A DNA stretch of 44,738 nt from Pseudodesulfovibrio sp. (GTDB lineage Bacteria; Desulfobacterota; Desulfovibrionia; Desulfovibrionales; Desulfovibrionaceae), in contig NZ_JAQUWN010000027.1 of the NCBI RefSeq assembly GCF_028692895.1, forward strand, positions 1-44,738. Direction: 5' to 3'. Within the stretch, counting starts at the first letter, position 1, and every line of letters starts with the position of its first letter. The position numbers were made by a program, and so were the translations under genes. The notes under the pieces were generated by a model that saw nothing but the letters and a program-made list of their open reading frames with translations, did not search any database and was not told the origin of the DNA. This document shows, one piece after another, positions 9,356-43,830 of the stretch.

Positions 9356-12300
9356 ATGCAACTCGACCGCCGAAGCTTCATGAAGCTCGCGGGCGTGGGT
9401 GCGGCGTCTCTCACCCTCGGCCAGCTCGGAGTCAGCCTGACTCCGGTCAAGGCCTATGCCGGTCAGCTCAAGATCACCGGCGCCAAAGAGGTTGTGACCG
9501 TCTGCCCCTTCTGCTCCGTAAGCTGCCACGTCATCGGCTACGTGAAGGACGGGAAGCTCGTCAGCACCGAAGGCGACCCGGACTACCCCATCAACGAGGG
9601 CGCGCTGTGCGCCAAGGGTGCGGCCATGTTCTCCATGACCACCGAGCACAACCGGCTGCACAAGCCCCTGTACCGCGCCCCCTACAGCGACAAGTGGGAA
9701 GAGAAGCCCTGGGACTGGATGCTCGACAAGATCGCCCGGCGCATCAAGGACACCCGCGACAAGGACATCATCCTCAAGGACAAGTCCGGCAAAACCGTCA
9801 ACCGTCTCGAATCCATGTTCCTGCTGGGCACCTCCCACGCGGGCAACGAGGAATGCGCCATCGCACATCAGGCGATGCGCGGCCTGGGTGTCGTCCACAT
9901 GGACCACCAGGCGCGTATCTGACACAGCGCCACAGTTGCGGCTCTGGGAGAGTCGTTCGGACGCGGTGCGATGACCAATCACTGGATCGACATCAAGAAT
10001 GCCGATTCCATCCTCATAATGGGCAGCAATGCTGCCGAACATCATCCGATTTCCTTCAAGTGGGTGTTGCAGGCCAAGGACAAGGGAGCCACCGTCATGC
10101 ACGTGGACCCGAAGTTCTCGCGCACGTCCGCCAGATCGGATTTCCATGTCCCCCTCAGGTCCGGCACGGACATCGCCTTCCTGGGAGGCATGATAAAGTA
10201 CATCGTCGACAACGAGAAATACTTCAAGGAATACATCGTTGAATACACGAACGCCTCGCTCGTGGTGGGCAAGGACTTCGGATTCAAGGACGGCATTTTC
10301 ACCGGCTACGACCCCAAGACCAGGACCTACGACAAGTCCAAGTGGGGCTTCGAGCTCGATGAAAACGGCGTGCCCAAGAGGGACAAGACCCTCAAGGACC
10401 CCCGCTGCGTCTTCCAACTGCTGAAGGAACACTACAGCCGCTACGACCTGGACACCGTCTCCACCACCACGGGCGTGACCAAGGAGAACCTGCTCAAGGT
10501 CTACAAGGCCTTCGCCGCCACCGGCAAGCCGGACAAGGCGGGCACCGTCATGTACGCCCTGGGCTGGACCCAGCACACCGTGGGCGTCCAGAACATCCGC
10601 TCGGCGGGCATCATCCAGCTCCTGCTGGGCAACATCGGCGTGGCGGGCGGCGGCATCAACGCCCTGCGCGGCGAACCCAACGTCCAGGGCTCCACCGACC
10701 ACACCCTGCTGTACCACATCATCCCGGGTTACATGGCCATGCCGCACAACGGCTGGCAGACCTACGACGAGTATATCAAGGGCAACACCCCGGTGAGCAA
10801 CGATCCCATGTCCGCCAACTGGTGGCAGCACAAGCCCAAGTACTTCGCCAGCCTGCTCAAGGCCTGGTACGGCGAGCACGCCACCAAGGAAAACGGCTTC
10901 TGCTACGAACTGCTGCCCAAGATCGAAAAGGGCGAGGACTATTCCTACCTCTTCCTGTTCGACCGCATGTACCGGGGCGAAATTCGCGGCGGCATCATCA
11001 TCGGCCTCAACCCGATGAACTCCGTGCCCAACACCAACAAGCTGCGCAAGGCGCTGGACAACCTGGAGTGGCTGGTCACCTCCGAACTGCACAACACCGA
11101 GACCACGGACAACTGGCACCGCCCCGGCATCGACCCCAAGAAGGTCAAGACCGAGGTGTTCCTGCTCCCGTCCGCCCACCGTCTGGAGAAGGAAGGCTCG
11201 GTGACCAACTCCGGCCGCTGGCACCTCTGGCACTACAAGGCCGTGGAGCCCGCATACGAGGCCAAGCCCTTCGGCGACATGTTCTGCGGCTTCATGAAGC
11301 GCGTGCAGAAACTGTACGCGAAGGAGGGCGGCAAGCTCCCCGAGGCCGTGACCTGGCTGGACTACCCGGACAAGTACGACCCGGACGACCTGTGCGCCCG
11401 CATCAACGGCCGCTTCACCAAGGACACCGAGGTCAAGGGCAAGCTGTACAAGGCGGGCCAGCAGGTTCCGTCCTTCACCGCGCTGGCGGACGACGGCTCC
11501 ACGTCCAGCCTGAACTGGCTGTACGCGGGCAGCTACACCGAGGAGGACGGCAACAAGTCCAAGCGCCGCAGCACCAAGCAGACCGAGATGCAGAAGAACA
11601 TCGGCCTGTACCCGAACTGGGCCTGGTGCTGGCCGGTCAACCGCCGCATCCTCTACAACCGCGCCTCCGTGGACCTGAACGGCAAGCCGTACAACCCGGC
11701 CAAGGCCGTCATCGAGTGGAAGGACGGCAAGTGGATCGGCGACGTGCCCGACGGCGGCTGGCCGCCCATGGCCACCGGCAAGGGCAAGCACCCGTTCATC
11801 ATGTCCAAGCACGGCTTCGGCCAGCTCTACGGCCCCGGCCGTCAGGACGGCCCGTTCTCCGAGCACTACGAGCCGGTGGAGACTCCCGTTGACAGCAACA
11901 AGTTCTCCAAGCAGCTCAACAGCCCGGTCTACAAGTTCGTGGCGAGCGAGATGGACAAGCTGGCCAAGCCCGCGGACCCGAACTACCCCATCGTCCTGAC
12001 CACCTACAGCCTGACCGAGCATTGGTGCGGCGGCGGCGAGACCCGCAACGTGCCCAACCTGCTCGAAGCCGAGCCGCAGCTCTACGTCGAGATGAGCCCG
12101 GAACTGGCCAAGGAGAAGGGGATCAAGAACGGCGACGGCGTCATCATCGAGTCCATTCGCGGACGGGTCGAGGCCATCGCCATGGTGACCATCCGCATAC
12201 GGCCGTTCCAGGTGCACGGCCGCACCATCCACGAAATCGGCATGCCGTTCTGCTTCGGCTGGACGACCCCCGGGACCGGCGACTCCACCAACCGGCTCAC

Positions 12301-12397
12301 GCCGTCGGTGGGCGACCCGAACACCACCATCCCGGAGTTCAAGGCCTGCTGCGTCAACGTCCGCAAGGCCGACAAGCTCACCGAGCTCGCAACCTAG
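9356..12397 (+). CDS. fdhA: Formate dehydrogenase catalytic subunit, selenocysteine-containing
   Basis: This is the Mo/W-bisPGD catalytic subunit of a periplasmic formate dehydrogenase, which oxidises formate to CO2 (or the reverse). The first 30 residues hold a Tat signal (DRRSFMKLAG). Cys50, Cys53, Cys57 and Cys85 form the [4Fe-4S] site next to the cofactor. An in-frame TGA at 9920-9922 (residue 189) lies in HQARI-Sec-HSATVAALGES, exactly where FdhA proteins of this family carry the active-site selenocysteine. The frame continues unbroken to 12397, giving 1,013 residues, the usual length of Desulfovibrio FdhA. Start ATG 9356 follows AGGAGG (9341-9346); the earlier in-frame start at 9275 would spoil the Tat signal. 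The C-terminal domain (from about 840) is the usual molybdopterin dinucleotide-binding barrel. It is followed after 15 nt by fdhB. Standard gene callers would split it in two. Confidence 0.95.
9920..9947 (+). promoter_or_regulatory. Selenocysteine UGA codon and candidate SECIS hairpin
   Basis: Immediately after the UGA (9920-9922) a short hairpin can form: CCACAG (9930-9935) with CTCTGG (9942-9947), with one C-C mismatch and the six-base loop TTGCGG. Bacterial SelB-binding elements lie within the coding sequence just behind the UGA, as here. The UGA-to-loop distance (13 nt) is a few bases shorter than in E. coli fdhF. Confidence 0.6.
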
Positions 12398-12412
12398 CGA
12401 AAGGAGAACGCC

Positions 12413-13147
12413 ATGCCCAAGACCATACTCGTAGACACCTCCCGCTGCACCGCGTGCCGCGGATGTCAGATCGCCTGCAAGGAATGGCATGAGCTGCCGG
12501 CCAACAAGACCACCCAGTACCACTGGGGCAGCCACCAGAATCCGCAGGACCTCAACGCCTACAACTACAAACTCGTCCGGTTCAGCGAGCACCTCGACAA
12601 CGGGACGGTCCGGTGGAACTTCTTCCCCGACCAGTGCCGCCACTGTGAGATCGCTCCCTGCAAGGAGACCGGCGACCTGTACATCGAGAACGCCATCGTC
12701 CAGGACGAAAAGACCGGGGCCATCCTCTACACGGAGAAGACCCGGAAGTTCAGCGACGAGCAGTTCAAGGAGATCAAGGAAGCCTGCCCGTACGACATCC
12801 CCCGCCGCGACGCCAAGACCGGCCTCCTGGCCAAGTGCACCATGTGCAACGAGCGCGTCCACGCCGGGATGCTCCCCGCCTGCGTGAAGGTCTGCCCCAC
12901 CGGGGCCATGAACTTCGGCGAGCGCGAGGAGATGCTGAAGCTCGGGCAGGAACGGCTGGCCAAGCTCAAGGAGAAGTGGCCCGACGCCATGCTGGCCGAC
13001 CCCGACTCGGTCAACGTCATCTACCTGCTCATCGACAAGCCGGAGAACTACCATAAGCACTCCGTGGCCGACGCGGGCCTCGGCCCGATGTCCAAGCAGC
13101 AGTTCCTCGCCACCCTGGCGAGGCCCTTCAAGGCCATGAAGGCCTAA
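12413..13147 (+). CDS. fdhB: Formate dehydrogenase iron-sulfur subunit
   Basis: The 244-residue electron-transfer subunit has four ferredoxin-type cysteine groups: CTACRGCQIAC near the N-terminus, CRHCEIAPC at about residue 77, CPYDI, and CTMCNERV followed by CVKVCPTGA. Four [4Fe-4S] clusters are expected, passing electrons from FdhA to periplasmic cytochrome c3. It has no signal peptide and would be exported bound to FdhA through the Tat pathway, as in related enzymes. AAGGAG at 12401-12406 fits the ATG at 12413. There is no C-terminal membrane anchor, so the complex is soluble in the periplasm. A long hairpin follows the stop. Confidence 0.95.
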   Translation: MPKTILVDTSRCTACRGCQIACKEWHELPANKTTQYHWGSHQNPQDLNAYNYKLVRFSEHLDNGTVRWNFFPDQCRHCEIAPCKETGDLYIENAIVQDEKTGAILYTEKTRKFSDEQFKEIKEACPYDIPRRDAKTGLLAKCTMCNERVHAGMLPACVKVCPTGAMNFGEREEMLKLGQERLAKLKEKWPDAMLADPDSVNVIYLLIDKPENYHKHSVADAGLGPMSKQQFLATLARPFKAMKA

Positions 13148-13157
13148 CGACAACCCG

Positions 13158-13199
13158 CCCTTCCGGCCGGGACGCGTCGCGCGTCCCGGCCCGGAAGGG
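13158..13199 (+). other. Long GC-rich hairpin between fdhB and fdhE
   Basis: Nineteen bases (13158-13176) pair with 13180-13199, with a single bulged base and a 3-nt loop. No U-run follows, so it is not a classical terminator. It may protect the 3' end of the fdhAB transcript or lower expression of the maturation genes behind it. Confidence 0.7.
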
Positions 13200-13213
13200 T
13201 CCAAAGGACGCAC

Positions 13214-14128
13214 ATGCGCACGCAATCCGCCCTCGCCCGGGTCAACGACACCCTCACCCTCCTCACCGAACGCACCCCCGCCTACCGGGAGCTGACCGAA
13301 CGGTTCGGCCCCCTGCTCCGCGCGGTGGCGCAAATGGCCGACGAGCTCGCCGACACCATGCCGAAACTCCCGGCCCCGGACCCGTCTCGGCTGGCCGCCG
13401 GGGTCTCCCTGCTGGTGGACGCGGACCTCGCCCCCTGCGGCGAGGCGCTCAAGCGTTCGGCCGCGGCGCTCCTGCCTGTCCTGGCGGACGCCCTGCGGCT
13501 GAACGGGGAGACGGCGGACCGGATCGCCGCGCATTTCGCGGCCTCGGACAACCTCGTGGGGCTTGCCCAGGCCAGGATTGAGGGCAACGCAAAACGCTTC
13601 GAGAACACCTCCGCGGAGCTGGGCGTCCAACCGGCGGCCACGCTCCTGTTCCTTTCGGAGACCATTTTCGCTCCCGTCCTCCGTGCTATAATCTCGGGCC
13701 TGGACAAGCCCCTGACCGACTCGGACTGGGATCAGGCCTACTGCCCGGTCTGCGGCTCCTCGCCGTCCATCTCCTACCTCTCGCCCAAGGAGGTCACGGG
13801 CCTCGACCAACTGGTGGGCGGCGGCGGCAAGAAGTATCTTCACTGCTCCCTGTGCGGCCAGAACTGGCGATACAAGCGCAACGCCTGCGCCGCCTGCGGC
13901 AACGACGAGAATCAGTCGCGCGAGGTGTTCACCTCGGACAAGACCCGCTTCGAACGGGTGGAGGCCTGCCACAAATGCGGGCACTACTGCCTGAGCATCG
14001 ACCTGCGCGAGTGCGAGCCGCACCCGGACCTGGACGCCATCCAGGTGGGCCTGATCCACCTGGATATCTTCGCCCGCAAGAGCGGCCTCGTCCCCGTCAC
14101 CGCCACGCTGTGGAACAGCGCGGAATAA
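13214..14128 (+). CDS. fdhE: FdhE-like formate dehydrogenase accessory protein
   Basis: The C-terminal half carries four CxxC pairs of rubredoxin type: CPVCG, CSLCG, CAACG and CHKCG, the signature of FdhE, an iron-binding chaperone needed for active formate dehydrogenase. The motif YCPVCGSSP followed by YLHCSLCGQNW is typical of the family. The N-terminal half (about residues 1-165) is alpha-helical and poorly conserved. At 304 residues it has family length. It is cytoplasmic, where the Tat substrate FdhA is matured before export. AAAGGA lies before ATG 13214, and fdhD starts 7 nt after its stop, so fdhE and fdhD are clearly co-transcribed. Confidence 0.9.
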   Translation: MRTQSALARVNDTLTLLTERTPAYRELTERFGPLLRAVAQMADELADTMPKLPAPDPSRLAAGVSLLVDADLAPCGEALKRSAAALLPVLADALRLNGETADRIAAHFAASDNLVGLAQARIEGNAKRFENTSAELGVQPAATLLFLSETIFAPVLRAIISGLDKPLTDSDWDQAYCPVCGSSPSISYLSPKEVTGLDQLVGGGGKKYLHCSLCGQNWRYKRNACAACGNDENQSREVFTSDKTRFERVEACHKCGHYCLSIDLRECEPHPDLDAIQVGLIHLDIFARKSGLVPVTATLWNSAE

Positions 14129-14135
14129 AGGCCCC

Positions 14136-14963
14136 ATGGGCACGCCGCACCTGAAACCCGTCCCCGCCCCTCCCCGGCAGCCCCGCGCCGGGGAAGGCGG
14201 GCTCTCGCGCCTGCATCCGACTACCCTGCAACGGTACGAGAACGGCCGACTCGTCTTCCGTGACGACGCCATCGCCGAGGAATCGACCCTGCGGCTGCTC
14301 ATCAACGGGCAACAGGAGGCCCTGCTCTCCCGGACGCCTGGCGACGACCTGAACCTGGTGGCGGGCTACCTCTTCTGCACCTCCCGCATCCGCGAGGCCG
14401 GGGACTTGGCGTCCGTCGGCTTCAGCTACCGGGGCGTGGCCAGGGCCGAGGTCGGGCTCGACGCCCCGGCGGACATCCGGCGCATCTTTCCCTCGCCCCG
14501 GCCCGTGCGCATCGGGGCCCACCGGCTCTTCGAGTTCAAGGCGGCTTTCGAGCGCCGCCAGAACCTCTACCGCGACACCGGCTCCACCCACGCGGCCGCC
14601 CTGTTCACGGCCGACGGCCAGCTCATCGCCTTCGGCGAGGACGTCGGGCGACACAACGCCTTCGACAAGGCCATCGGCCGCGCCCTGCTGGAGGGGACCC
14701 TCGGGCAGGCGGCCATCGCCATGCTCTCCTCCCGCCTGGCCCTGGAGCTGGCGGTCAAGGCGGCCACGGCCAACATCCCGGTCCTCTGCGGCTTTTCCGC
14801 CGCCACCAGTTCGGGCGTCCGCTATGCCGAGGAGAACAACCTGACCCTGGTGGGCAGGCTGCGCAAGGAATCGTTCAACATATACGCCAACGGCTGGCGC
14901 ATCCTCACCGGCGAGTCCGACAAGACAGAAAGGGCCGGCATCTTTCCCGCGCCCGCCCCTTGA
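14136..14963 (+). CDS. fdhD: FdhD-like formate dehydrogenase maturation protein lacking the CxxC pair
   Basis: FdhD passes sulfur from the cysteine desulfurase to the Mo/W cofactor so that formate dehydrogenase becomes active. The 275-residue protein has the family core: LLINGQQEALLSRTPGDDLN, AGYLFCTSRI, then GSTHAAALF and GEDVGRHNAFDKAIG, and a C-terminal SRLALELAVKAA and CGFSAATSS. What is missing is the flexible loop with CxxC (Cys121/Cys124 in E. coli). The matching place, before FERRQNLYRDTG, reads FPSPRPVRIGAHRLFEF and has no cysteine. The only cysteines are in AGYLFC and VLCGFS. It is the last gene of the fdh group. It either uses another residue or partner for sulfur transfer or acts only in cofactor binding. 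Confidence 0.88.
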   Translation: MGTPHLKPVPAPPRQPRAGEGGLSRLHPTTLQRYENGRLVFRDDAIAEESTLRLLINGQQEALLSRTPGDDLNLVAGYLFCTSRIREAGDLASVGFSYRGVARAEVGLDAPADIRRIFPSPRPVRIGAHRLFEFKAAFERRQNLYRDTGSTHAAALFTADGQLIAFGEDVGRHNAFDKAIGRALLEGTLGQAAIAMLSSRLALELAVKAATANIPVLCGFSAATSSGVRYAEENNLTLVGRLRKESFNIYANGWRILTGESDKTERAGIFPAPAP

Positions 14964-19366: not shown

Positions 19367-19705
19367 ATGGAAAAGATACTCATCCCCCTGCTGGACAGCG
19401 ACGTGGCCCCCCGGTTCGACCTGGCCACCGACGTGCTCGTGGTCTCCTTCTCCCGCGAGACCCTGACCATGGGCACCATCAAGGAAAAGGTCGTGGTCCT
19501 GAACAACGCCTCGTCCGAGGCCGCCTGCCGCCTCGCCCTGAGCGAAAACGTCCGCACGGTCATCTGCGCGGGCATCGAGGCGGAATACCACGACTTCCTG
19601 ACCTGGAAAGGAATCAAGGTCCTGGACGACGTCTGCGGACCCGTGGACCTGGTACTCGAATCCTACCTGACCGACGCCCTGGAAAAGGGCATGTGCTTCT
19701 ACTGA
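19367..19705 (+). CDS. NifX/NafY-like iron-molybdenum cofactor-binding family protein
   Basis: The 112-residue protein is a single domain of the dinitrogenase iron-molybdenum cofactor family (RNase H-like fold): KILIPLLDSDVAPRFDLATD at the start, a central CRLALSENVRTVICAGIEAE and a helical end. Family members bind metal-sulfur clusters in nitrogenase assembly, but in sulfate reducers many copies occur without nitrogenase genes, as here, with unknown roles. The cysteines are few (positions about 53, 66, 86 and 110). It is coupled to the activator gene (7 nt gap, GAGGCGG ribosome site overlapping the end). With the cysteine-rich PAS sensor next door, a metal- or redox-related signal for the activator is possible, but this is inference. 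Confidence 0.82.
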   Translation: MEKILIPLLDSDVAPRFDLATDVLVVSFSRETLTMGTIKEKVVVLNNASSEAACRLALSENVRTVICAGIEAEYHDFLTWKGIKVLDDVCGPVDLVLESYLTDALEKGMCFY

Positions 19706-19722
19706 GCCGACACCGTTTCTAT

Positions 19723-19779
19723 ACGTTTCAAAATGACACTTGGCCAAAAACGCGTTTTGGACCAAAACGTTTCATTTTG
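19723..19779. promoter_or_regulatory. Dyad-symmetric element, probable activator binding region
   Basis: Nested inverted repeats share a centre near 19753: CAAAATGA (19729-19736) with TCATTTTG (19772-19779), and CCAAAA (19744-19749) with TTTTGG (19755-19760). TTTTGGACCAAAA (19755-19767) is itself symmetric. The word ACGTTTCA occurs at 19723 and 19767. The centre is about 100 bp upstream of the -24 element, a normal distance for an enhancer site. ACGTTTCATT is also found at 17901-17910, upstream of the activator gene. Confidence 0.65.
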
Positions 19780-19849
19780 CTTCTAAGCGTTTCCGCACCC
19801 CATTCTCATTTTTCATTCAACATCCGGCAACAACTGAAAAACTTCATAT

Positions 19850-19864
19850 TGGCATAGCCATTGC
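19850..19864 (+). promoter_or_regulatory. Sigma-54 (-24/-12) promoter
   Basis: TGGCAT-N5-TTGC has the invariant GG and GC with exactly ten bases between them. Transcription should begin around 19876, giving a leader of about 43 nt before the pseudo-receiver gene. An activator gene lies immediately upstream. Confidence 0.85.
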
Positions 19865-19918: not shown

Positions 19919-20290
19919 ATGCACGTATTGCTCATCGACGCCGACGACGACTTTCGCCGCAACCTGGCGGACAGACTGTCCAAACGCGGACTGACGGTTC
20001 TGGACACCGGGGACGCCGAAGAGGCCGCCCGACTGGCGCGCGGGGAAAACGCCGAGGCGATTCTGGCCGGGCTCTCCAGCCCCAAGGAACCGCTGCTCTA
20101 TTTCCTGTCCGAACTCCGGCAGGAACGCCCGGAAAGCACCGTCATCCTCATCAACCACTCCGGCGAGGTGTCGCTCTCCATCGAGGCCATGAAACTTGGC
20201 GTCGTTGACGAGGCGGGCGTCCCCGTGGACCTGGAGGACCTGCTCGGGAAGCTCCGGGCGGCGGTTGCATCGAGGAAAAGCGGCCATTAG
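19919..20290 (+). CDS. Degenerate response-regulator receiver domain (pseudo-receiver)
   Basis: The 123-residue protein is a lone receiver fold: HVLLIDADDDF keeps the acidic metal-binding residues (Asp9-Asp11), but the phosphate-accepting Asp is Gly51 (ILAGLSSP, where VLLDxxMP is expected), the Thr/Ser of strand 4 is replaced in VILINHSG, and the conserved Lys of strand 5 is absent (VVDEAGVPVDL). It therefore cannot be phosphorylated normally and probably works through protein contacts or ligand binding. ATG 19919 is preceded by AAGGG and matches the family start; an upstream GTG at 19883 would add 12 residues. It is the first gene behind the sigma-54 promoter, with the CBS gene 42 nt downstream, suggesting a regulatory role for the transporters of the operon. 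Confidence 0.82.
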   Translation: MHVLLIDADDDFRRNLADRLSKRGLTVLDTGDAEEAARLARGENAEAILAGLSSPKEPLLYFLSELRQERPESTVILINHSGEVSLSIEAMKLGVVDEAGVPVDLEDLLGKLRAAVASRKSGH

Positions 20291-20332
20291 GGGTTTGTGA
20301 AGTTGTTACCGTTTGTTGGGAGGAAGGAAGAT

Positions 20333-20851
20333 ATGAAAGTCAAAGACCTGATGATCCCCGTGGGCGAGTACCGCACCGTCGGCGTGGACGCCATCTTCGG
20401 CGAAGTGGCCGCCGCGCTGGCGGACAGCGGCCACCGCGACGTCATCGTCGTGGACGGGGACGGCAATCTGGCGGGCGTGCTGACCATGATCGACATCATG
20501 CTCGCCCTGGAGCCCAATTACAAAAAGCTTGGCAAGAAGGACCTGGGGTCCGACACACTGTCCAACCGCTACGTGGCGGACATCTTCAAGGAGTTCGGCC
20601 TCTGGTCCGACACCCTGACCAAGGTCTGCCAGAACGGATATGGCACCAAGGTCTCCGAGGCCATGCACGTGCCCGCAGAGACCGACTACCTGGACGAGGA
20701 AGACGCGCTGGAGCACGCCATCCACCGCTTCATCATCGGGACGCACCAGCCCCTCATCGTCCGCAGGGACGGCGCCATCACCGGCGTGCTGCGCATGGGC
20801 GACGTCTTTGGCGAAATCACCAGGCGCATGCTCGCCTGCCACGTCAAGTAG
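20333..20851 (+). CDS. Tandem CBS-domain protein
   Basis: The 172 residues are two CBS motifs: KVKDLMIPVGEYRTVGVD to VLTMIDIMLAL (about 1-60) and KVSEAMHVPAET to VLRMGDVFGEI (about 105-165), joined by a helical linker (YKKLGKKDLGSDTLSNRY). Such pairs bind adenine nucleotides (AMP, ATP or similar) and report energy state, often to a transporter. No other domain is attached. ATG 20333 lies behind GGGAGGAAGGAAG, a strong ribosome site; the open frame continues 12 codons upstream without one. It is 14 nt before the DASS transporter gene, so nucleotide control of transport is a fair guess. Confidence 0.88.
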   Translation: MKVKDLMIPVGEYRTVGVDAIFGEVAAALADSGHRDVIVVDGDGNLAGVLTMIDIMLALEPNYKKLGKKDLGSDTLSNRYVADIFKEFGLWSDTLTKVCQNGYGTKVSEAMHVPAETDYLDEEDALEHAIHRFIIGTHQPLIVRRDGAITGVLRMGDVFGEITRRMLACHVK

Positions 20852-20865
20852 GGGAGGAGGAAACC

Positions 20866-22341
20866 ATGGAAGCAGCTCCCGCCATCAAACCCGCCTTTGA
20901 CTGGAAGCGCCTGGTCTTCATGCTCATCGGCGCGACCCTGTTCACCGTCGTCTATTTCTCTCCCTCCTGGCCCGACGCCATCGACCCGATGGGCCAGCAC
21001 TTCATCCTGTCCAAGGAGGCCAAGGGCGCCATCGCCGTCTTCCTCCTGGCCGGAACATGGTGGGTCTTCGAGGTCGTGCCCATCGGCGTCACCTCGCTGA
21101 TGATCGGCATCCTCCAGGTCATGTTCCTGATCCGGCCCGCCAAGGTCGCCTTCAAGGACTTCATGGACCCGTCCGTGCTCTTCATCTTCGCCTCCATCAT
21201 GATCGGCCTGGTCTTCACCAAGACCGGCCTGACCAAGCGGCTGGCATACAAGATGCTCGACATCGTGGGCGAGCGGACCTCCATGATCTATCTCGGCGTC
21301 TTCGTGGTCACGGCCGCGCTGACCCACATCATGGCCCACACCGCCGTGGCAGCCACCATCTATCCCCTGCTCCTCGCCATCTACGCCCTCTACGGCGAGG
21401 GCGACCGGCCCACCAAGTTCGGCAAGGGACTGTTCATCGGCATGGCCTATGTGGCCGGCGCGGGCTCCATCATCACCCTGCTCGGCGCGGCGCGCGGCGC
21501 GGTGGCCCTCGGCTTCTTCAAGGAAATCGTCCACGTCGAGGTCGGATTCTTCGAGCTCACCTACTACATGGCCCCCATCGGATGGGGCATGACCTTCCTG
21601 CTCTGGCTGTTCTTCATGATCTTCCTCAAGCCCGAAAAGGACCGCATCCCCGGCCTGCGCGAAAAGGCCCGCGAGCTCAACGCCAAGATGGGCAGCCTGA
21701 CCCGCAACGAAATCATGGCCGCCGTCATCGTGGCCACCGTCATCATCATCATGTCCCTGCGCGCCTTCGTCCCCGCCCTCAAGGCCGTGGACAAGACCGC
21801 CATCATCCTCTGTTCCTCGGTCCTGTTCTTCGTCTTCAAGATCCTGGACCTCAAGGACCTGGAAGACATCCCCTGGAACATCATCCTGCTCTTCGCGGGC
21901 GCCATGTCCATCGGCTTCTGCCTGTGGGAGACCGGCGCGGCCAAGTGGATGGCCGTCAACTGGCTGGTCATGTTCCAGGAGGCCAACTGGTTCGTCTTCA
22001 TCATGTCCATCGCCTTCTTCGTGATGATCATGACGAACTTCATCATGAACGTGGCGGCGATAGCCATATCGCTCCCGGTCGCACTCGTCATCGCGCCCTA
22101 CCTGGGCGTGGCTCCTGAGGTCATCCTCTACGCCTCGCTGGTCATGGCGGGCATGCCGTTCCTGCTCCTGGTGGGCGCGGCTCCCAACGCCATCGCCTAC
22201 GACTCCGGCCAGTTCACCCCCGGCGAGTTCTTCAAGTGGGGCGTCCCCGCCTCGCTGCTGCTCATGGTTATGGTGGGCCTCGCCGTGCTGGTCATCTGGC
22301 CCCTCATGGGTATGCCTATCACCCTGCCCGCAGGGGGGTAG
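20866..22341 (+). CDS. DASS/SLC13-family sodium:anion transporter
   Basis: The 491-residue inner membrane protein has 11-13 hydrophobic segments and the DASS pattern: WWVFEVVPIGVTSLM, the first re-entrant region near residue 157, a large middle loop (KPEKDRIPGLREKAREL), IPWNIILLFAGAMSIG, and GAAPNAIAYDSGQF near the end. Classic members import dicarboxylates or citrate with Na+. The two SNT motifs that bind Na+ and substrate are changed, to AHT (157-159) and MNV (394-396), so the substrate or coupling ion could differ; sulfonates, sulfate or other organic anions remain possible. GGGAGGAGG precedes ATG 20866. The operon also has a NhaB antiporter, which would remove co-imported Na+. Confidence 0.88.
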   Translation: MEAAPAIKPAFDWKRLVFMLIGATLFTVVYFSPSWPDAIDPMGQHFILSKEAKGAIAVFLLAGTWWVFEVVPIGVTSLMIGILQVMFLIRPAKVAFKDFMDPSVLFIFASIMIGLVFTKTGLTKRLAYKMLDIVGERTSMIYLGVFVVTAALTHIMAHTAVAATIYPLLLAIYALYGEGDRPTKFGKGLFIGMAYVAGAGSIITLLGAARGAVALGFFKEIVHVEVGFFELTYYMAPIGWGMTFLLWLFFMIFLKPEKDRIPGLREKARELNAKMGSLTRNEIMAAVIVATVIIIMSLRAFVPALKAVDKTAIILCSSVLFFVFKILDLKDLEDIPWNIILLFAGAMSIGFCLWETGAAKWMAVNWLVMFQEANWFVFIMSIAFFVMIMTNFIMNVAAIAISLPVALVIAPYLGVAPEVILYASLVMAGMPFLLLVGAAPNAIAYDSGQFTPGEFFKWGVPASLLLMVMVGLAVLVIWPLMGMPITLPAGG

Positions 22342-22364
22342 CCAAGCAAACCAAGATATGGAAT

Positions 22365-22401
22365 AACTACGGTTGCCGTGTTGAACACGGCAACCGTAGT
22401 T
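22365..22401 (+). other. Perfect 18-bp inverted repeat between the DASS and beta-helix genes
   Basis: Bases 22365-22382 and 22384-22401 are exact inverted copies around one base. No U-run follows, and the ATG of the next gene is 21 nt away. It may act as an attenuator or an RNA-processing site that sets transporter level relative to downstream genes. Confidence 0.75.
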
Positions 22402-22422
22402 CTCCACAACCCCCGGAAAGCC

Positions 22423-23844
22423 ATGGAAAAATTAGAAGCCTTATTCGACCATATCGCCTCCAGGGTCAACGTGAACCTCAAGCCGCTCGGCATCGACGTC
22501 CGCCCCCTGCTGCAGAATTCCATCCCCAGGGAACGCCACCTGCTCTACTACGCGTTCTACGCCCTGACGCAGGACCACCCCCTCAGCTTCAAATTCCTGA
22601 ACTCCAATCTGGCCGGGAGCTATTTCCTGGGCAAAACCATGGTCGACCGATCGGTCCTCTACAAGAGCGACATCCGCGGCGACGAGCTTAAGCGCAAGGG
22701 CGACGTGGTGGAGTTCAACGGCGTGAAGACCAGGCTCTTCTATGACGAGGTCATCCGCATCATCAATTCGTTCCTGGTCAAGACCCTTGTCCACAACAAC
22801 TCGAAAAACGCCGAGATGCCCGAGGTGTTCCGCATCCTGAACACGGTCGCCATGCACTTCTCCAACATCCACGGCACCACCTGCGAAGGCGTCTACCTCG
22901 GCCCCTTCGCCACCGCCGACTTCTCGGTCATGCACAACTGCGTGGTCGGGGACTTCTCCTACGTCCAGGCGGGCGACCTGGCCAACAAGATCATCGAGCC
23001 CGGCAGGGTCTGGATCCGGGCGCGGGGACTCTATGAATTCAACTACGTCTTCCCGGAAGGCGTGGTGGAAAAATACGTCAAACTGAACGAGCACGGACAG
23101 CTCTCCGGCAAGTTCATCGAATACGTGGACGAAACCAAGGAGGACTTCGTTCCCGTCTACTCCACCCTCGCCCCCGAGCCGCTGGAGAACATTCCCGAGT
23201 CCACTTATGTAAGCCCCTATGCCGTCATCAAGGGACAATGCGAGATAGGGGAGAACTGCCTGATCGTGCAACGCGCCCACGTGGAGAACTCCGTCGTGGG
23301 CAAGGGCTCCAACGCCCAGGAAAACTGTTTCATCAAGAACTCCGTCTACGAGGGCAACGACGTCACGGCCCACGGCGGAAAGGTCATCCACGCCCACATA
23401 GGCAAAAACGTTTTCGTGGGCTTCAATTCCTTCGTTCATGGAACCAAGGACGCGGCCATCACCATCGGCCGCGACTCCATCGTCATGCCGCACACCATCA
23501 TCGACGCCGAGGAGCCCATCGAGGTTCCCGAGAACTCGGCCATCTGGGGTTACGTGACACGGCAGGCGGACCTGGCCAACCAGTGCGTGGATTTGGAGCA
23601 ATTCTCGAAGACTACCGATCTCACGCTCGGAAACGCCACCTTCAAGGGGGATGGCGACGCCTTCGTCAAGGCGTTCCGGCACCGCATCGAGCACATCCGC
23701 GAGGAAAACGGCGCCTACTACAACGGCACGGAAAAGACTCGCGGTCACGCACAAAAGACGCAGGATGCCTGCTTCAACATCCTCCAGCCGTTCCAATCCG
23801 GTCCGGGGATGGGCATGTATCCGACAATGACCATCGGCGAATAG
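22423..23844 (+). CDS. Left-handed beta-helix (hexapeptide repeat) protein of unknown function
   Basis: The 473-residue protein has hexapeptide repeats in two places: a short set at about 150-210 ([20 protein letters not shown]) and a long one at about 263-376 ([48 protein letters not shown]). Such left-handed beta-helices occur in acyltransferases, nucleotidyltransferases and gamma carbonic anhydrases. The His pattern of gamma carbonic anhydrase is not obvious to me. The N-terminal 140 residues (starting [15 protein letters not shown]) are helical and match no family I know. No signal peptide. ATG 22423 follows GGAAAG; the upstream GTG at 22378 lies inside the hairpin. It sits between two Na+-linked transporters in one operon, but how it relates to them cannot be told. 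Confidence 0.75.
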
Positions 23845-23893
23845 GTTGCCGGCGGATCAGCGACAACCAGTCACACGAGTTAGGAGAACCACC

Positions 23894-25513
23894 ATGTCCC
23901 AGTCACTAGCGGCTGCCTTCGGCAAGAACTTTCTCGGCAATGCGCCGGGATGGTACAAGACGGCGATTCTTGCCTTTCTCATCATCAACCCCATCCTCAT
24001 CTACACGGCGGGCCCCTTCGTCGCCGGATGGGTGCTCATCGGCGAATTCATCTTTACCCTGGCCATGGCGCTCAAATGCTACCCGCTCCCCGCGGGCGGC
24101 CTGCTGGCCATAGAGGCCGTCATCTTCAAGCTGACGACCCCGTTGACGGTCTATCATGAAGCGAAGAACAACTTCGCCGTCATCCTGCTGCTGATTTTCA
24201 TGGTGGCGGGCATCTACTTCATGAAGGACTTCCTGCAATACACCTTCACCCGCATCCTCACCAGGGTGCGCTCCAAGATCGCCATCTCCCTGATGTTCTG
24301 CTTCGCGGGCGCGTTCCTCTCCGCCTTCCTGGACGCCCTGACCGTCACCGCCGTCATCATCGCGGTGGCCTTCGGCTTCTACAACGTCTACCACCGCTTC
24401 GCCTCCGGCAAGAACATGCAGTGCGAGCACGACCTGTGCTCCGACAGCACGGTCAAGGAGACGCAGCGCGAGGAGCTGGCCCAGTTCCGCGCCTTCCTGC
24501 GCAACCTGATGATGCACGGCGCGGTGGGCACCGCCCTGGGCGGCGTGTGCACCCTGGTCGGCGAGCCCCAGAACCTGCTCATCGGCGAGGAAATGGGCTG
24601 GCATTTCATACCGTTCTTCCTCCAGGTGGCCCCGGTCTCCATGCCGGTCCTGGCCGTTGGCCTCCTGACCTGCATCTTCGTGGAGCGGTTCCACATCTTC
24701 GGCTACGGCGCGGTCATGCCGGGCAACATCCGCTCCCACCTGCTGGAGACCGCCATCCAGATGGAGGAAAAGCGCGGCGCCGAGGGCAAGGCCAAGCTGA
24801 TCGTCCAGGGGCTTATCGGCGTCTGGCTGATCGTGGCCCTGGCCCTGCACCTGGCCGAGGTCGGCATCATCGGCCTCTCGGTCATCGTCCTGCTGACCTC
24901 GCTCAACGGCTACACCGACGAGCACCAGTTCGGCCCGGCCTTCGAGGAAGCTTTGCCCTTCACCGCCCTGCTGGTGGTCTTCTTCTCCATCGTGGGCGTC
25001 ATCCATGACCAGCACCTGTTCGCCCCGGTCATGCATCTGGTCCTCTCCATGCACGGCCACATGCAGATGGCGGCCTACTACATCGCCAACGGCCTGCTTT
25101 CCATGATCTCCGACAACGTGTTCGTGGCCACGGTCTACATCTCCGAGACCAAGATGCACTTTGTCCAGTTGCTCGGCACCGTCCCCGGCGTCACCGACTC
25201 CGTGGCCCTCATGGACAAGCTGACCGACCCGCACCTGAACCGCCCCGATGTCATCGCCTCGCTGCCCCAGGCCATCCAGGGCCAGGTCGGCGACATGATG
25301 CGCCACTTCGACAAGCTGGCGGTGGCCATCAACACCGGCACCAACATCCCGTCGGTGGCCACGCCCAACGGGCAGGCGGCCTTCCTCTTCCTGCTGACCT
25401 CGGCCCTGGCCCCGGTCATCCGGCTCTCCTACGGCCGCATGGTCATCCTGGCCCTGCCCTATACCATCACCATGTCCATCACGGGCCTAGCCGCCACCTA
25501 CTACTTCCTGTAG
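23894..25513 (+). CDS. nhaB: NhaB-type Na+/H+ antiporter
   Basis: The 539-residue protein follows E. coli NhaB closely in pattern: [20 protein letters not shown] at the start, [60 protein letters not shown] and a C-terminal [15 protein letters not shown]. About twelve transmembrane segments are visible. NhaB exchanges internal Na+ for external H+ and shares the ion transporter fold of the DASS protein in the same operon. TAGGAGA lies before ATG 23894; the frame open from 23846 overlaps sequence with no coding character. As the last gene before the terminator, it probably balances Na+ brought in by the DASS transporter. Confidence 0.93.
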
Positions 25514-25533: not shown

Positions 25534-25570
25534 AAAAAAGGGCTCCGCACGAATGCGGAGCCCTTTTTTT
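25534..25570. terminator. Strong bidirectional rho-independent terminator
   Basis: A stem of 16 pairs (25534-25549 with 25554-25569) with the loop CGAA is flanked by A6 and T7, so it can stop transcription from both sides. It ends the sigma-54 operon and the convergent binding-protein gene. Confidence 0.95.
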
Positions 25571-29280: not shown

Positions 29281-31434
29281 TTATTTCTTCTTGCTGTCGT
29301 CCAGGAGCTCGGCCACGTGGCGTACCTTGATGCTGGAGCCGCGCCGCTTGAGGCCGCCGCGCAACTGCATGATGCAGCCCGGACAGTCGGTATACAGCTC
29401 GGAAGCGCCGGTGGCCTCCACGTTGTCCAGCTTCTTGCGCAGCAGCTCGGCCGAGAGTTCCGGGAACTTCATGGAGAAGGTGCCGCCGAAACCGCAGCAG
29501 ACCTCTTCCTCGGCGCAGGGCACGTACTCCTTGCCCGCCTTGGCCAGCAGCTCGCGCGGGGCCTCATGCACGTCCAGCCCCCGGCAAAGGTGGCACGGCG
29601 CGTGGTAGGTGGCCTTGCCGCCGCTGCCCTTGAACTCGTCCGCCTTCACCTTGAGCACGTCGTTGACGAAGGAGGAATAGTCCATGATCTTGGCCGAGAA
29701 GTCGTCTGCGCGCAGCTTGAGGCTCGGCTTGCCCATGACCAGCTTGGGGTAGTTGTGCTTGAGGTGCGCGGCGCAGGAGGCGCAGAGCGTGATGATGTAG
29801 TCGTACTTCGAGGGATCGAAGGCCGCCAGGTTCTGGGCCGCCACGTCGTGGGAGGCCTTCATCTCGCCCATCATCTGCACGGGCAGGCCGCAGCAGGTCT
29901 GGCCCATGGGATAGTCCATGGACACGCCCTCGGCCTCGAAGAGGCGGACGGCGGACTGCATCTGCTCGGGATAGACGAAGTCCTGCACGCAGCCCGAGAA
30001 CAGGGCCACGCGGTACTTCGGGTTCTCCACGCGCGGCGCATTCTGCTGCCACCAGTCGCGGAACGGCTTTTCCGCGATGGTCGGCAGGGCCCGGAAGGAG
30101 TGCTCCTTGGAGAAGATCATGGGCAGGTGGCGGATGAAGCCGTCTTTCTCCGCCACGGGGCGCTGCCCCCACTTGGCGGCGCGCAGCAGGCCGTGGAAGA
30201 GCTTGCGGTTGCGCAGCACCTGGCCGAGCAGCACCGAGGGCAGCGGATGCCCGTCCTCCTCCATGATCCGGGCATGGATGGTCTTTATCAGGCGGGGCAG
30301 GTCGATGCCGCCCGCGCAGACGTCCTTGCACGCCTCGCAGTTGATGCAGTTCTGGACCAGGTTCTTGGCCTTTTCCTTGCCGTGGAAGAAGTAGGTCAGG
30401 ATCAGGCCGATGGCGCCGATGTAGATGTGGCCCATCTTGTGCCCGCCCACCAGCCGGTAGACCGGGCAGACGTTGGCGCAGGCGCCGCAACGCACGCAAC
30501 GGTTGACCTGGGAGAAGAGCGGGTCCTTGACCAGCTCGCTGCGCCCGTTGTCCAGAAACACGTAGTGGATTTCCTTCTTGCCGTCCTCGGCCGCCAGGCA
30601 CTCGTTGGCCCCGGTGATCCAGGTCACGTAGGACGTGATCTGCTGGCCGGTGGCGTTGCGCGGCAGGACCTTGAGGATGCGCAGTGCGTCGTGCAGGGTG
30701 GGCAGCAGCTTGTCGATGCCCATGAGCGCGACGTGGACCCGGGGCAGCGTGGTGACCAGGCGGGCGTTGCCCTCGTTGGTCACGATGCCGATGCCGCCGG
30801 TCTCGGCGATGGCGAAGTTGGCGCCGGAGATGCCCATGTCCGCTTCGATGTACTTGCTGCGCAGCTCGCGGCGGGCGACCTTGACCAGCTTTTCGATCTC
30901 GGTGTCCTGCTTCTTGCCGGTGACCTCGGTGAAAAGGTCGCCCACCTGGAAGCGGGAGAGGTGGATGGCGGGCATGACCATGTGGGACGGGCCCTCGTGG
31001 CGGAGCTGGATGATCCACTCGCCCAGGTCGGTCTCGGTCACTTCGATGCCCGCGGCCTCCAGGTCGTGGTTGAGGAGAATCTCCTCGGCGGTCATGGACT
31101 TGGATTTGACGATCTTCTTGCACTCGGCGTCGCGGGCGATCTTGGTGATGATCTTGTTGGCCTCGTCGGCATCGTGGGCGAAATGGACGTGCACGCCCGC
31201 CGCCTCGGCGTTGGCCTTGAACTCGGCGTAGAGGCGATCGAAATCGGCGGCCGCGGCGTCCTTGGAGGCGGCGATCTCGCCGATCAGCCCCTTGACGTCT
31301 ATTCCCTTGAAGGCGTTGGCCCGGCCGGCGCGGTAGGCGACGGCGAAATTGTCCAGGGTGGTGCGCAGGAAGTCGTTGTCCAGGGACTCGCGCAGTTCCT
31401 CGCGGTATTCCTTGAGATCGTGAGCTTTCTGCAT
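29281..31434 (-). CDS. Fused LutB-LutA-type lactate oxidation iron-sulfur protein
   Basis: In one 717-residue chain this joins two subunits that are separate in Bacillus. The first part (about 1-400) is LutB-like: a LUD domain (KSMTAEEILLNHDLEAAGIE, SGANFAIAETGGIGIVTNEG) and two ferredoxin sites, CVRCGACANVC (near 311) and CINCEACKDVC (near 363). The rest is LutA-like, with the two cysteine-rich CCG domains: FSGCVQDFVYP and CCGLPVQMMG (near 481 and 515), then CHLCR, CCGFGGTFSMKF (near 648) and CPGC. With LutC it forms an L-lactate dehydrogenase that passes electrons to the quinone or redox pool. It starts 2 nt after lutC and is the last gene of the operon. In D. vulgaris a protein of the same fused form is, as I recall, part of lactate oxidation. 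Confidence 0.92.
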   Translation of the reverse strand: MQKAHDLKEYREELRESLDNDFLRTTLDNFAVAYRAGRANAFKGIDVKGLIGEIAASKDAAAADFDRLYAEFKANAEAAGVHVHFAHDADEANKIITKIARDAECKKIVKSKSMTAEEILLNHDLEAAGIEVTETDLGEWIIQLRHEGPSHMVMPAIHLSRFQVGDLFTEVTGKKQDTEIEKLVKVARRELRSKYIEADMGISGANFAIAETGGIGIVTNEGNARLVTTLPRVHVALMGIDKLLPTLHDALRILKVLPRNATGQQITSYVTWITGANECLAAEDGKKEIHYVFLDNGRSELVKDPLFSQVNRCVRCGACANVCPVYRLVGGHKMGHIYIGAIGLILTYFFHGKEKAKNLVQNCINCEACKDVCAGGIDLPRLIKTIHARIMEEDGHPLPSVLLGQVLRNRKLFHGLLRAAKWGQRPVAEKDGFIRHLPMIFSKEHSFRALPTIAEKPFRDWWQQNAPRVENPKYRVALFSGCVQDFVYPEQMQSAVRLFEAEGVSMDYPMGQTCCGLPVQMMGEMKASHDVAAQNLAAFDPSKYDYIITLCASCAAHLKHNYPKLVMGKPSLKLRADDFSAKIMDYSSFVNDVLKVKADEFKGSGGKATYHAPCHLCRGLDVHEAPRELLAKAGKEYVPCAEEEVCCGFGGTFSMKFPELSAELLRKKLDNVEATGASELYTDCPGCIMQLRGGLKRRGSSIKVRHVAELLDDSKKK

Positions 31435-31436
31435 GG

Positions 31437-32063
31437 CTAGTCCTCCAGGAGCAGGATGTGCAGTTCAAGGGGGCCGTGCACGCCCAGGGCGAGCACGCGC
31501 TCGATATCCGCAGTACGGCTCGCGCCGGTGACGAAGGCCAGGTAGTCCGGCGTGTTCTTCATGCGGGTGAGCATCATCTTTTCCACGGCGTAGGTGTTGG
31601 CTCGTATCTTGGACGCGGACAGCATGCAGACGTGAAATTCGCTGACCATGGTCGCCAGTCGCAGGTCCTCGCTCGGGCAGTCGATCATCAGCGTGCCGGT
31701 GTCGGCAATGCCGTACTCGGCAACGGTGAACCCGATGTCCAGACCGGCCAGCTTGTCGCGCAGGCCGCTGTTGATGCACTCGAAACCGGCCTTCTTGGCC
31801 TTGGTGGCGAGCTTTTTGTAGAGCTCGGGCTTCAGGCCGGGCGCGGCGATGACCTTCCGCTGCTTCTCGTCGCAAAGGTCGCCCGCCTTGTCGGAGACCG
31901 CCAGGTCGCAGCCGCTGACCAAAAGCTGGCAGGCCTCTTTCCGGTCACACAGGTCGACGACGTAGGCGATGGCCTCGTCCTCGTTCGCTATGGCGACCAC
32001 GGTGGCGGAAACGAGCTCCGCCTTTTCCTTGAATCGCTGGGAAATGGATTCCTGCGAAGACAT
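31437..32063 (-). CDS. lutC: LutC-type LUD-domain subunit of lactate dehydrogenase
   Basis: The 208-residue protein is a single LUD domain like LutC/LldG: GFTVAEYGIADTGTLMIDCP and LATMVSEFHVCMLSASKI are the family core, and GASRTADIERVLALGVHGPL closes it, the usual C-terminal signature. It is the third component of the LutABC lactate-oxidising complex, whose A and B parts are fused in the next gene. I chose ATG 32063 because GGAGGAGG lies upstream; the frame is open 19 codons further but with no ribosome site. It is separated by 75 nt from ackA and by 2 nt from the fused lutB-lutA gene. Confidence 0.92.
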   Translation of the reverse strand: MSSQESISQRFKEKAELVSATVVAIANEDEAIAYVVDLCDRKEACQLLVSGCDLAVSDKAGDLCDEKQRKVIAAPGLKPELYKKLATKAKKAGFECINSGLRDKLAGLDIGFTVAEYGIADTGTLMIDCPSEDLRLATMVSEFHVCMLSASKIRANTYAVEKMMLTRMKNTPDYLAFVTGASRTADIERVLALGVHGPLELHILLLED

Positions 32064-32138
32064 TGATATTGACCTCCTCCGTATGCCCCAAGCCCCCTCC
32101 CTCCGGAGGGGGCTCCGCAACGGGCTTGTAGTTATACC

Positions 32139-33341
32139 CTAACCAGCGACAAGCGCCAGGGTCTCACGGGCAATGGCCAGCTCCTCGTTGGTCGGGATGA
32201 CCCATATGGAGACGGGGCTGTCGTCCGTGCTTATCTTGCGCGGGTCCTTGGAGCGGACCGCGTTGGCCTCTTGGTTGATCTTCATGCCGAAGGGCTCCAG
32301 CCCCTCGATGGTCTTGGCGCGCACGACGTCGTCGTTCTCGCCGATGCCCGCAGTGAAGACCACGCCGTCCACACGGCCGAGAACGGCCATGTAGGCGCCG
32401 ATGTATTTGCGGCTCCGGTAGGTCTGGACGGCCAGGGCCAGTTTGGCGCGCTCGTCGCCCTTCCCGATGGCCGCGTGGATGTCGCGCATGTCGTTCATGC
32501 CGCACAGCCCCTTGAGGCCGGACTCCTTGTGCAGGATGTTGTCGATGGCGGCCACGTCCAGGCCGCGGTTCACGGCCAGGTAGTTGTGCACAGCCGGGTC
32601 CACGTCGCCGGAGCGGGTGCCCATGACCAGCCCCTCCAGCGGGGTCAGGCCCATGGAGGTGTCCACGCACAGGCCGTTCTTGACGGCGGCCATGGAGGCG
32701 CCGTTGCCCATGTGGATGGTGATGAGGTTGGTCTCCTCCAGGGGCTTGCCCAGGAGACGGGCGCACTCGCCGGCCACGTACTTGTGGGAGGTGCCGTGCG
32801 CGCCGTAGCGGCGGATGCGGTCCTTCTCGTAGTACTCGTAGGGAATGGCGTACATGTAAGCGTGCGACGGCATGGTCTGGTGGAACGCGGTGTCGAACAC
32901 CAGGATCTGGGGCACGCCGGGGAACAGTCTGGTGGCGTCCTTGGCCCCGCCCAGGTTGGCCGGGTTGTGCAGGGGCGCCAGCCGCTCGGTTTCGGTCAGG
33001 GCGGGCCACAGGTCGTCGGTGATGATGAGCGAGGCGTTGAACGGGCCGCCCGCCACCACGCGGTGGCCCACGGCGCTGATCTCGTCCTTGGAGCAGACCG
33101 CGCTTTCGCCCTGGGTAATGAGGTCGATGACCATCTGGAGGCCCACCCCGTGGTCGGGGATGGGCTGCTCCAGGTTGACGACCATCTGCCTTTCGGTGCC
33201 GGGGTGCGCCTTGTTGATCAGGCTGCCCTGCTCCTCGCCGATGCGCTCCACCAGTCCGGAGACCAGGACGGACTCGTCTTCCATGTCCAGCAGTTGATAC
33301 TTGATGGAGGAACTGCCGGAGTTGATAACCAGAATCTTCAT
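32139..33341 (-). CDS. ackA: Acetate kinase
   Basis: The 400-residue protein has all acetate kinase landmarks: KILVINSGSSSIKYQLL at the start, AVGHRVVAGG, the catalytic PLHNPANL region, FDTAFHQTMP, RRYGAHGTSHKYV, ITIHMGNGASMAAV and VFTAGIGENDD. It makes ATP from acetyl phosphate, releasing acetate, and is the substrate-level ATP step of lactate oxidation in sulfate reducers. A complete active site is visible (Asn7, Arg in HRVVAG, the Asp in FDTAFH, Arg in RRYGAHG). It is 30 nt downstream of pta, with which it works. Confidence 0.98.
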   Translation of the reverse strand: MKILVINSGSSSIKYQLLDMEDESVLVSGLVERIGEEQGSLINKAHPGTERQMVVNLEQPIPDHGVGLQMVIDLITQGESAVCSKDEISAVGHRVVAGGPFNASLIITDDLWPALTETERLAPLHNPANLGGAKDATRLFPGVPQILVFDTAFHQTMPSHAYMYAIPYEYYEKDRIRRYGAHGTSHKYVAGECARLLGKPLEETNLITIHMGNGASMAAVKNGLCVDTSMGLTPLEGLVMGTRSGDVDPAVHNYLAVNRGLDVAAIDNILHKESGLKGLCGMNDMRDIHAAIGKGDERAKLALAVQTYRSRKYIGAYMAVLGRVDGVVFTAGIGENDDVVRAKTIEGLEPFGMKINQEANAVRSKDPRKISTDDSPVSIWVIPTNEELAIARETLALVAG

Positions 33342-33371
33342 TATGCTGACGCCCTTTCTCGGTTGCTTAAA

Positions 33372-35489: not shown

Positions 35490-35516
35490 TTTTCTTCTTT
35501 CCTTAGGTTGACCGTT

Positions 35517-36797: not shown

Positions 36798-36806
36798 GGG
36801 AACCAC

Positions 36807-38186: not shown

Positions 38187-38215
38187 TGCTAGCTCCTTGA
38201 CATGAAATTTGTTTT

Positions 38216-38316
38216 GCCGGGCACCACGCCCGGCTTCCTGACATTATTCGGCTAAAGTGCCCATTGACTCAACACAATCCGACCGGATCGGGAGAGGCGG
38301 TCGCCCGCCCCTCCCG
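38216..38316 (-). other. Two GC hairpins between the lactate permease and dehydrogenase genes
   Basis: The first is a 7-bp stem (38216-38222 with 38228-38234); the second is CGGGAG and GGCGG pairing with CCGCC and CTCCCG (38289-38300 with 38305-38316), with one mismatch and a 4-nt loop. Neither is followed by a T-run on the - strand. They probably cause mRNA processing or partial attenuation within the operon. Confidence 0.55.
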
Positions 38317-38325
38317 AAGGATCGA

Positions 38326-40035: not shown

Positions 40036-40085
40036 TACAACACCTCCATTCGGAAAACACGGAATCCACAGTTTGACACATTTAT

Positions 40086-40133
40086 GTGCGGGGCGGAGCC
40101 AGACAAGGCCTCCGCAAGGGCTCCGCCCCGCAC
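40086..40133 (-). other. Large hairpin between por and lctP
   Basis: A perfect 15-bp GC-rich stem (40086-40100 with 40119-40133) encloses an 18-nt loop. On the - strand it is followed by ATAAATGTG, not a T-run, so read-through is expected. It may set the level of por relative to the downstream genes. Confidence 0.7.
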
Positions 40134-40146
40134 GAACATCAGACGA

Positions 40147-43830
<3,684 letters not shown>

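Follow-up and report, generated by a model that had tools for sequence, protein, structure and literature searches.

A gene cluster on the plus strand of a 44,738-nucleotide stretch of DNA from Pseudodesulfovibrio sp. (contig NZ_JAQUWN010000027.1 of assembly GCF_028692895.1; this whole stretch is called the window, and coordinates are positions in it) was analysed and is proposed, with a probability of about 0.7, to be a sodium-coupled sulfate-entry module for dissimilatory sulfate reduction. In order, the unit holds genes for an enhancer-binding protein (EBP) of the sigma-54 type and a small PF02579-type protein, a sigma-54 promoter, genes for a pseudo-receiver, a CBS-domain protein, a DASS-family symporter, a left-handed beta-helix protein (LbH) and an NhaB-type Na+/H+ antiporter, and a terminator-like hairpin; the genes are presumably cotranscribed. 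An earlier note on this DNA, made from its letters alone, had placed the five genes from receiver to NhaB on one strand behind one sigma-54 promoter, and gene calls and profile searches agreed with all five, with a CBS protein in the unit and with two Na+-linked membrane proteins (DASS and NhaB). The promoter was also right; the start of the unit had to be moved two genes upstream, because the EBP and PF02579 genes hold that place in many relatives and belong to the system. The proposal builds on gene content, gene order, promoter conservation and a genomic link to aprA. It has long been asked whether Na+ or H+ pays for sulfate uptake, and as the unit brings a candidate symporter for sulfate together with a sodium exporter and putative regulators of both, single-gene deletions would make the question testable. 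According to Marietou et al. (2018; PMC5840216), the proteins by which dissimilatory sulfate reducers take up sulfate had not been identified in any study.

For comparison, LbH loci were collected from an order sample of 199 genomes, a phylum sample of 395 genomes and named records, which gave 126 loci (covering the greater part, though not the whole, of what the order and phylum searches matched) and 114 after removal of near-copies. Partners were counted within 6 kb of the LbH gene, and as several loci are short or lie at contig ends, absences in these counts are not firm. The order EBP-PF02579-(receiver)-CBS-DASS-LbH-(NhaB) recurs in the genus and the family and partly in the phylum, with CBS genes near 70 of the 114 LbH genes, DASS near 60, EBP near 44, the PF02579 gene near 35 and NhaB near 31; the same-strand gene directly upstream of LbH was DASS in 48 loci and CBS in 18. 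LbH gave 66 matches in the order sample, of which four weak ones (G011, G056, G169 and G192) were set aside and two fragments (G066 and G079) were retained, leaving 62. Tallied by hand over the same genomes, DASS and LbH occurred together in 52, LbH only in 10, DASS only in 7 and neither in 130 (odds ratio 97). The earlier note had staked its proposal on the gene order recurring in relatives, and it does; the cluster is real, conserved and larger than first described. Two successive CBS-DASS pairs, with no beta-helix gene, were seen in four loci from other families of the order (L175, L176, L177 and L179), and in one locus (L065; G194:C1:2089084-2090558) the DASS gene lies in two overlapping frames, possibly through a frameshift.

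The symporter carries a clear DASS domain (PF00939, Na_sulph_symp; 140.7 bits, cut-off 27), and sulfate is its likely substrate and our best guess, because of the distribution of aprA and because the loci resemble published DASS sulfate-transporter clusters. With presence set at E <= 1e-100, aprA was found in 163 of the 395 phylum genomes (159 matches over the family's cut-off, 4 under), in 70 of the 72 genomes with this DASS and in all 36 with LbH. The earlier note had spoken of an organic or sulfur anion, which the aprA count narrows to sulfate as the best candidate. In Desulfobacterales loci with LbH, most DASS copies are 71-79% identical to the window protein. Clusters of DASS sulfate transporters with CBS proteins have been published for Desulfobacteraceae, Desulfosarcina variabilis and relatives, and their authors speculate on control by adenosine 5'-phosphosulfate, ATP or energy state (PMC11887813). 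DASS and CBS are common to both systems, and four of the present loci (L039, L130, L144 and L145) also encode receivers and a kinase like that of L039 (whose dCache match is just under the Pfam cut-off) together with CBS, the same DASS and LbH. Control differs: a cache-domain kinase and WalR-type regulators are proposed for the published cluster, whereas a sigma-54 EBP and a PF02579 protein are found here. To call the system undescribed, as had been done, was therefore too strong, and the EBP/PF02579, LbH and NhaB parts, which did not come up in term searches of that article, would be additions to recently described DASS/CBS sulfate clusters. The main text of PMC11887813 (figures and supplements lay outside the search) contains no NhaB, antiporter, acetyltransferase, acyltransferase or hexapeptide, and its sole mention of sigma-54 concerns other pathways; the full gene composition was not found in print within the search made, which left aside figures, supplements and most subscription journals.

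A second published frame is DASS group Ci, described in the text of PMC5840216 as highly conserved in sulfate reducers and as putative sulfate transporters, two of whose members lie near sat/aprAB; the same tie to sulfate reducers is seen here in the aprA count. Group Ci is described there with a conserved G258, an alanine at 260 and a non-conserved N262, and the GAARG of the window protein and its relatives would fit that residue pattern if the numbering corresponds. The window protein is likely to belong to group Ci. One Ci protein and one distant Cii protein, 27% identical, are reported for Desulfobacula (PMC5840216), much like two of our loci (L042 and L048), which hold a second DASS at 25% identity. 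CBS, hexapeptide and NhaB do not occur in the text of that article.

For the return of sodium, NhaB is the first candidate. It scored 821 bits against the NF007093 equivalog model (cut-off 640) and 718 bits against TIGR00774 (cut-off 826), the latter under the cut-off, and NhaB is in the locus in 23 of the 31 genus rows. Three loci with DASS and no NhaB beside it (L074, L098 and L099) have an operon for an Mrp/Mnh antiporter in the neighbourhood of LbH, and Mrp is also near LbH in two loci without DASS (L033 and L075); Mrp was assigned by Pfam in L098 and by similarity in the other four, and the absence of NhaB refers to the locus, NhaB elsewhere in those genomes not having been searched for. 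A role in Na+ return is suggested because two unrelated Na+/H+ antiporters occur near the same gene. In the proposed scheme DASS would import sulfate with Na+, and NhaB, or Mrp in some relatives, would export Na+ at the cost of protons and so close the cycle. The sodium cycle of the earlier note is in this way kept as plausible, with the addition of Mrp near LbH where the locus is without NhaB. A complex-I-like module with antiporter-type subunits was seen near LbH in 7-8 of the 114 loci; in seven (L047, L051, L054, L055, L058, L127 and L136) it is a complex-I-like/Ech-type module with Mrp-type subunits, and in all of these except L055 and L136 a CBS gene lies upstream of LbH.

Several observations weigh against sodium-coupled sulfate entry. 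The symporter scored 192 bits against TIGR00785, slightly under the cut-off of 198.6, and is for this reason called DASS-like by domain and not a certified member of that model; in an alignment to VcINDY the places of the two SNT motifs are occupied by MAHTAVAAT and FIMNVAAIA, and of 99 DASS relatives 88 have MTNFIMNVAAIAIS and at least 83 have MAHTAVAAT. With the model score under the cut-off and both motifs altered, even the coupling to Na+ is uncertain. Among the DASS matches of the phylum sample, the window itself not counted, identity to the window protein runs from 48 to 79%, and these proteins may differ in substrate; PMC5840216 stresses that the substrate of a DASS protein cannot be read from phylogeny alone. 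In the phylum sample, two DASS genomes (G273 and G485) gave no aprA match, the weakest aprA match listed (E 9e-108) was that of a DASS genome, G285, 93 genomes have aprA and not this DASS, which would make DASS one of several sulfate routes, and the association with aprA could come from shared lineage. NhaB, finally, lies within 6 kb in only 31 of the 114 LbH loci, and the queries used found it in 0 of 36 loci from the phylum sample.

Two other functions were weighed on these data. The DASS protein might carry another anion (a dicarboxylate, thiosulfate, sulfite, a sulfonate or an oxyanion such as molybdate), with the link to sulfate reducers reflecting the metabolism of that anion. The altered SNT motifs would suit such a substrate, and so would a PF02579 partner reminiscent of Mo proteins (the profile, that of a NifX/ORP-like family, is covered nearly whole, just under the gathering score of 26.3 bits) and a MOT1-type molybdate transporter gene beside the solitary LbH gene of L090 (7579-8769, minus strand); set against the aprA count and against the kinase/CBS clusters with the same DASS, which resemble the published sulfate clusters, this is considered unlikely. 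Alternatively, the operon might be a salt or osmotic response unit, with Na+ extrusion as its main task and anion uptake secondary. The NhaB or Mrp genes found close to the operon within the family and other LbH copies with NhaB or MgtE point that way, whereas NhaB or Mnh was found in 0 of 36 phylum loci by the queries used and the aprA association is strong, which leaves this reading quite improbable.

With sulfate entry as the preferred function, regulation would act at two levels. The CBS protein is suggested to gate the transporter by the cytoplasmic nucleotide or energy state, a step proposed because uptake must match the ATP use of sulfate activation; nucleotide sensing by CBS is our inference. 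At the promoter, the neighbouring EBP would drive sigma-54 transcription, and the C-x5-C-x2-C-x3-CP motif of its PAS domain, largely conserved in the aligned relatives, may be a metal or Fe-S sensor. The window EBP has an intact GAFTGA loop and the Walker A motif GETGTGKD. Scanned on both strands, the window holds a single exact match to TGGCAY-N5-TTGC, at this promoter; with 0.19 matches expected by chance, and 16 of 100 shuffles holding at least one, the match alone is not significant, and its significance comes from conservation behind the PF02579 gene in company with GAFTGA-type EBPs. The region between that gene and the promoter is rich in GTTTCA (18 per kb in loci with an intact EBP and 27 per kb with a degenerate one, where the loci as a whole have about 0.8 per kb), with at least two copies in 22/22 degenerate-EBP loci, 13/13 intact loci of the same genus and 23/34 of all intact loci, and it is presumed to hold the EBP binding sites. 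The receiver of the window has neither the acceptor Asp nor the conserved Lys; among 32 aligned sequences, window included, all 32 were read as lacking the Lys and 29 as lacking the Asp, which bears out the earlier view that this receiver cannot be phosphorylated.

Control of this promoter by this EBP is best supported by the fact that the EBP loop and the promoter change in step. Compared were 56 loci, selected for having the EBP, the PF02579 gene and DASS. An intact GAFTGA loop (GAYTGA in one) was present in 34, all with a -24/-12 site scoring 17-19 of 19, the counterpart of the window site, and 32 of them have the receiver gene (not L108 and L109). The remaining 22 loci (L031, L032, L056, L060-L072, L157, L161, L164, L165, L167 and L168; 21 genomes, since L032 and L161 are one record) have a degenerate loop (NAFPGA, NALPGA, NALPGS, HALPGA or HSLPGA; NALPGA in L157), no -24/-12 site behind the PF02579 gene (best score 15) and no receiver gene. 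In their place, CTTGAC stands 92-105 nucleotides behind the PF02579 stop in 22/22, and CTTGAC with a [TC]TATA -10 element in 19/22, against 0/34 intact loci for the full pattern (CTTGAC alone was uncounted in the intact loci); the nearly fixed place and this contrast speak against a chance match as the source of the sigma-70-like promoter. Walker A was unchanged in 16/16 aligned degenerate EBPs, and the helix-turn-helix was similar in the forms listed. Loss of sigma-54 was rejected as well, rpoN being present in 34 of 36 genus genomes, including all 21 with a degenerate EBP; the two without it (G583 and G584) are 81-82% complete and belong to the intact group. DASS is carried by 34 genus genomes, 21 degenerate and 13 intact, and the window has the intact sigma-54 form. 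As the 21 genomes have the operon and no receiver, the pseudo-receiver is not required in every relative. By comparison of these genomes, this is a natural switch from sigma-54 to an apparent sigma-70 promoter in which loop, promoter and receiver change together.

The 22 degenerate rows form one clade in the EBP tree (100/100 support), and are for that reason counted as one event with three linked changes, not as 22. In the transport-gene tree the window species stands among the degenerate group, with a separation not rejected (approximately unbiased test, p 0.15), whereas the EBP and PF02579 data reject two placements of the window among that group (p under 1e-40). An rpoB tree (30 of the 36 genus genomes, frames checked) places the window species and G147 among the degenerate species, with moderate support there, and rejects the degenerate rows as one clade (p 0.0004); pyruvate:ferredoxin oxidoreductase (PFOR), used as a species marker, did not resolve the placement. 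The species may have exchanged the regulator module, which could account for this. Precedents are known: according to the text of PMC3162934, defective GAFTGA motifs prefer Pro at position 4, and TyrR, DhaR and HupR work with sigma-70, while the step from PhhR to TyrR is a known case of leaving sigma-54 (PMC1173090). The present case resembles these in that GAFTGA is lost as the promoters become sigma-70 ones, and in the change from Thr to Pro at position 4, and differs from them in that both states, each with its matching promoter, are found for one operon in one genus. The operon offers a natural before-and-after set for an activator that changes its sigma factor.

LbH is a full-length homologue of PDB entry 3c8v (E 4.7e-144), a structural genomics entry labelled putative acetyltransferase and presumably from Desulfovibrio G20. 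No function for 3c8v was found, and the only paper found with its code concerns peptide design. In the scheme above LbH would be a cytoplasmic partner of the transporters, probably either a regulator that binds a ligand or an enzyme that modifies its target; of its 473 positions, 69 show conservation of 97% or more across 81 sequences, and the many polar ones among these suggest a ligand site. Because other copies follow NhaB, MgtE or TauE, LbH seems to accompany ion transporters in general as a partner: four copies lie behind NhaB (L077, L083, L085 and L092), four behind MgtE (L081, L086, L088 and L116) and one directly behind TauE, with more near TauE with a gene between or on the opposite strand (L110, L112 and L113), and universal stress proteins accompany four (Pfam in L120, L122 and L132; place and length in L123). 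The copies linked to NhaB and MgtE branch apart from the family's DASS-linked copies (100 SH-aLRT, quick tree), and 19 of the 114 loci fell outside all partner classes used. A wider proposal is put forward tentatively and at rather less than even odds: that LbH is a new class of cytoplasmic ion-transporter partner of sulfate reducers which, with nucleotide-type sensors (the CBS, universal stress and pseudo-receiver proteins), would tie the entry of sulfate to the energy state and to the export of sodium, in an operon passed from sigma-54 to sigma-70 within one genus by the linked loop, promoter and receiver change.

Enzymatic roles for LbH were considered in the same light. An acetyl- or acyltransferase with the transporter or some small molecule as its substrate would agree with the hexapeptide repeats (Pfam), the label of 3c8v and strongly conserved polar residues (R85, D87, E88, K90, H124, H150, Q283, R284, N297, Q299, E300, H317 and H357); the named acyltransferase models listed for LbH all scored far under their cut-offs, and the identified neighbours are mainly transporters, CBS, universal stress and receiver proteins, and this role is thought doubtful. 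A gamma-carbonic-anhydrase-like enzyme is very improbable: there are weak matches to gamma-carbonic-anhydrase chains (E about 5e-5, residues 256-361), and R284, N297, Q299 and H317 are conserved in similar places, yet of the three Zn-binding His only H317 seems conserved by eye, the others falling at K305 and I322.

Between the DASS and LbH genes of the window lies a stem-loop more stable than in any of 200 shuffles (z -6.9). Stems of at least 10 bp were found in 45 of 61 distinct DASS-LbH intergenic stretches, many from related species, against 1.4% of plain shuffles, and 44 of the 45 have no T run; a processing or stability element is more likely than a terminator. Rfam gave no match in the window at gathering thresholds.

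Table 1. Features of the proposed sulfate-entry operon in the window.
Feature	Position	Strand	Basis
EBP with PAS, AAA+ sigma-54 domain and Fis-type helix-turn-helix	17887-19359	+	PF00158, PF02954, PF08448; TTG start per list of open reading frames
Small PF02579-type protein	19367-19705	+	PF02579, 25.5 bits; same place in 56 selected loci
Presumed EBP binding region, GTTTCA-type repeats	19706-19815	+	GTTTCA at 19725-19730 and 19769-19774
Sigma-54 (-24/-12) promoter, TGGCATAGCCATTGC	19850-19864	+	TGGCAY-N5-TTGC match; similar site in relatives
Pseudo-receiver, acceptor Asp and conserved Lys replaced	19919-20290	+	PF00072, E 2.6e-8; alignment of 32
CBS-domain protein	20334-20851	+	PF00571; ATG behind GGAGG-type ribosome-binding-like site; longer option GTG 20297
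DASS-family symporter, proposed sulfate/Na+ symporter	20866-22341	+	PF00939, E 9e-41
Stem-loop between DASS and LbH genes	22365-22401	+	17 bp stem without T run
Left-handed beta-helix (hexapeptide) protein LbH	22423-23844	+	Conserved start ATG 22423; full-length relative of PDB 3c8v
NhaB-type Na+/H+ antiporter	23894-25513	+	ATG 23894; PF06450, E 1e-220; NF007093, 821 bits
Intrinsic-terminator-like hairpin with T run, operon end	25540-25570	+	Read directly from sequence

Elsewhere in the window, the minus strand at 29281-43737 holds genes for a LUD/Fe-S protein, acetate kinase, phosphate acetyltransferase, an FAD-linked oxidase, lactate permease and PFOR, a set for lactate/pyruvate oxidation; a PFOR gene is near the operon in several relatives too. 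Molybdopterin oxidoreductase and FdhD-family genes lie on the plus strand at 9971-14963.

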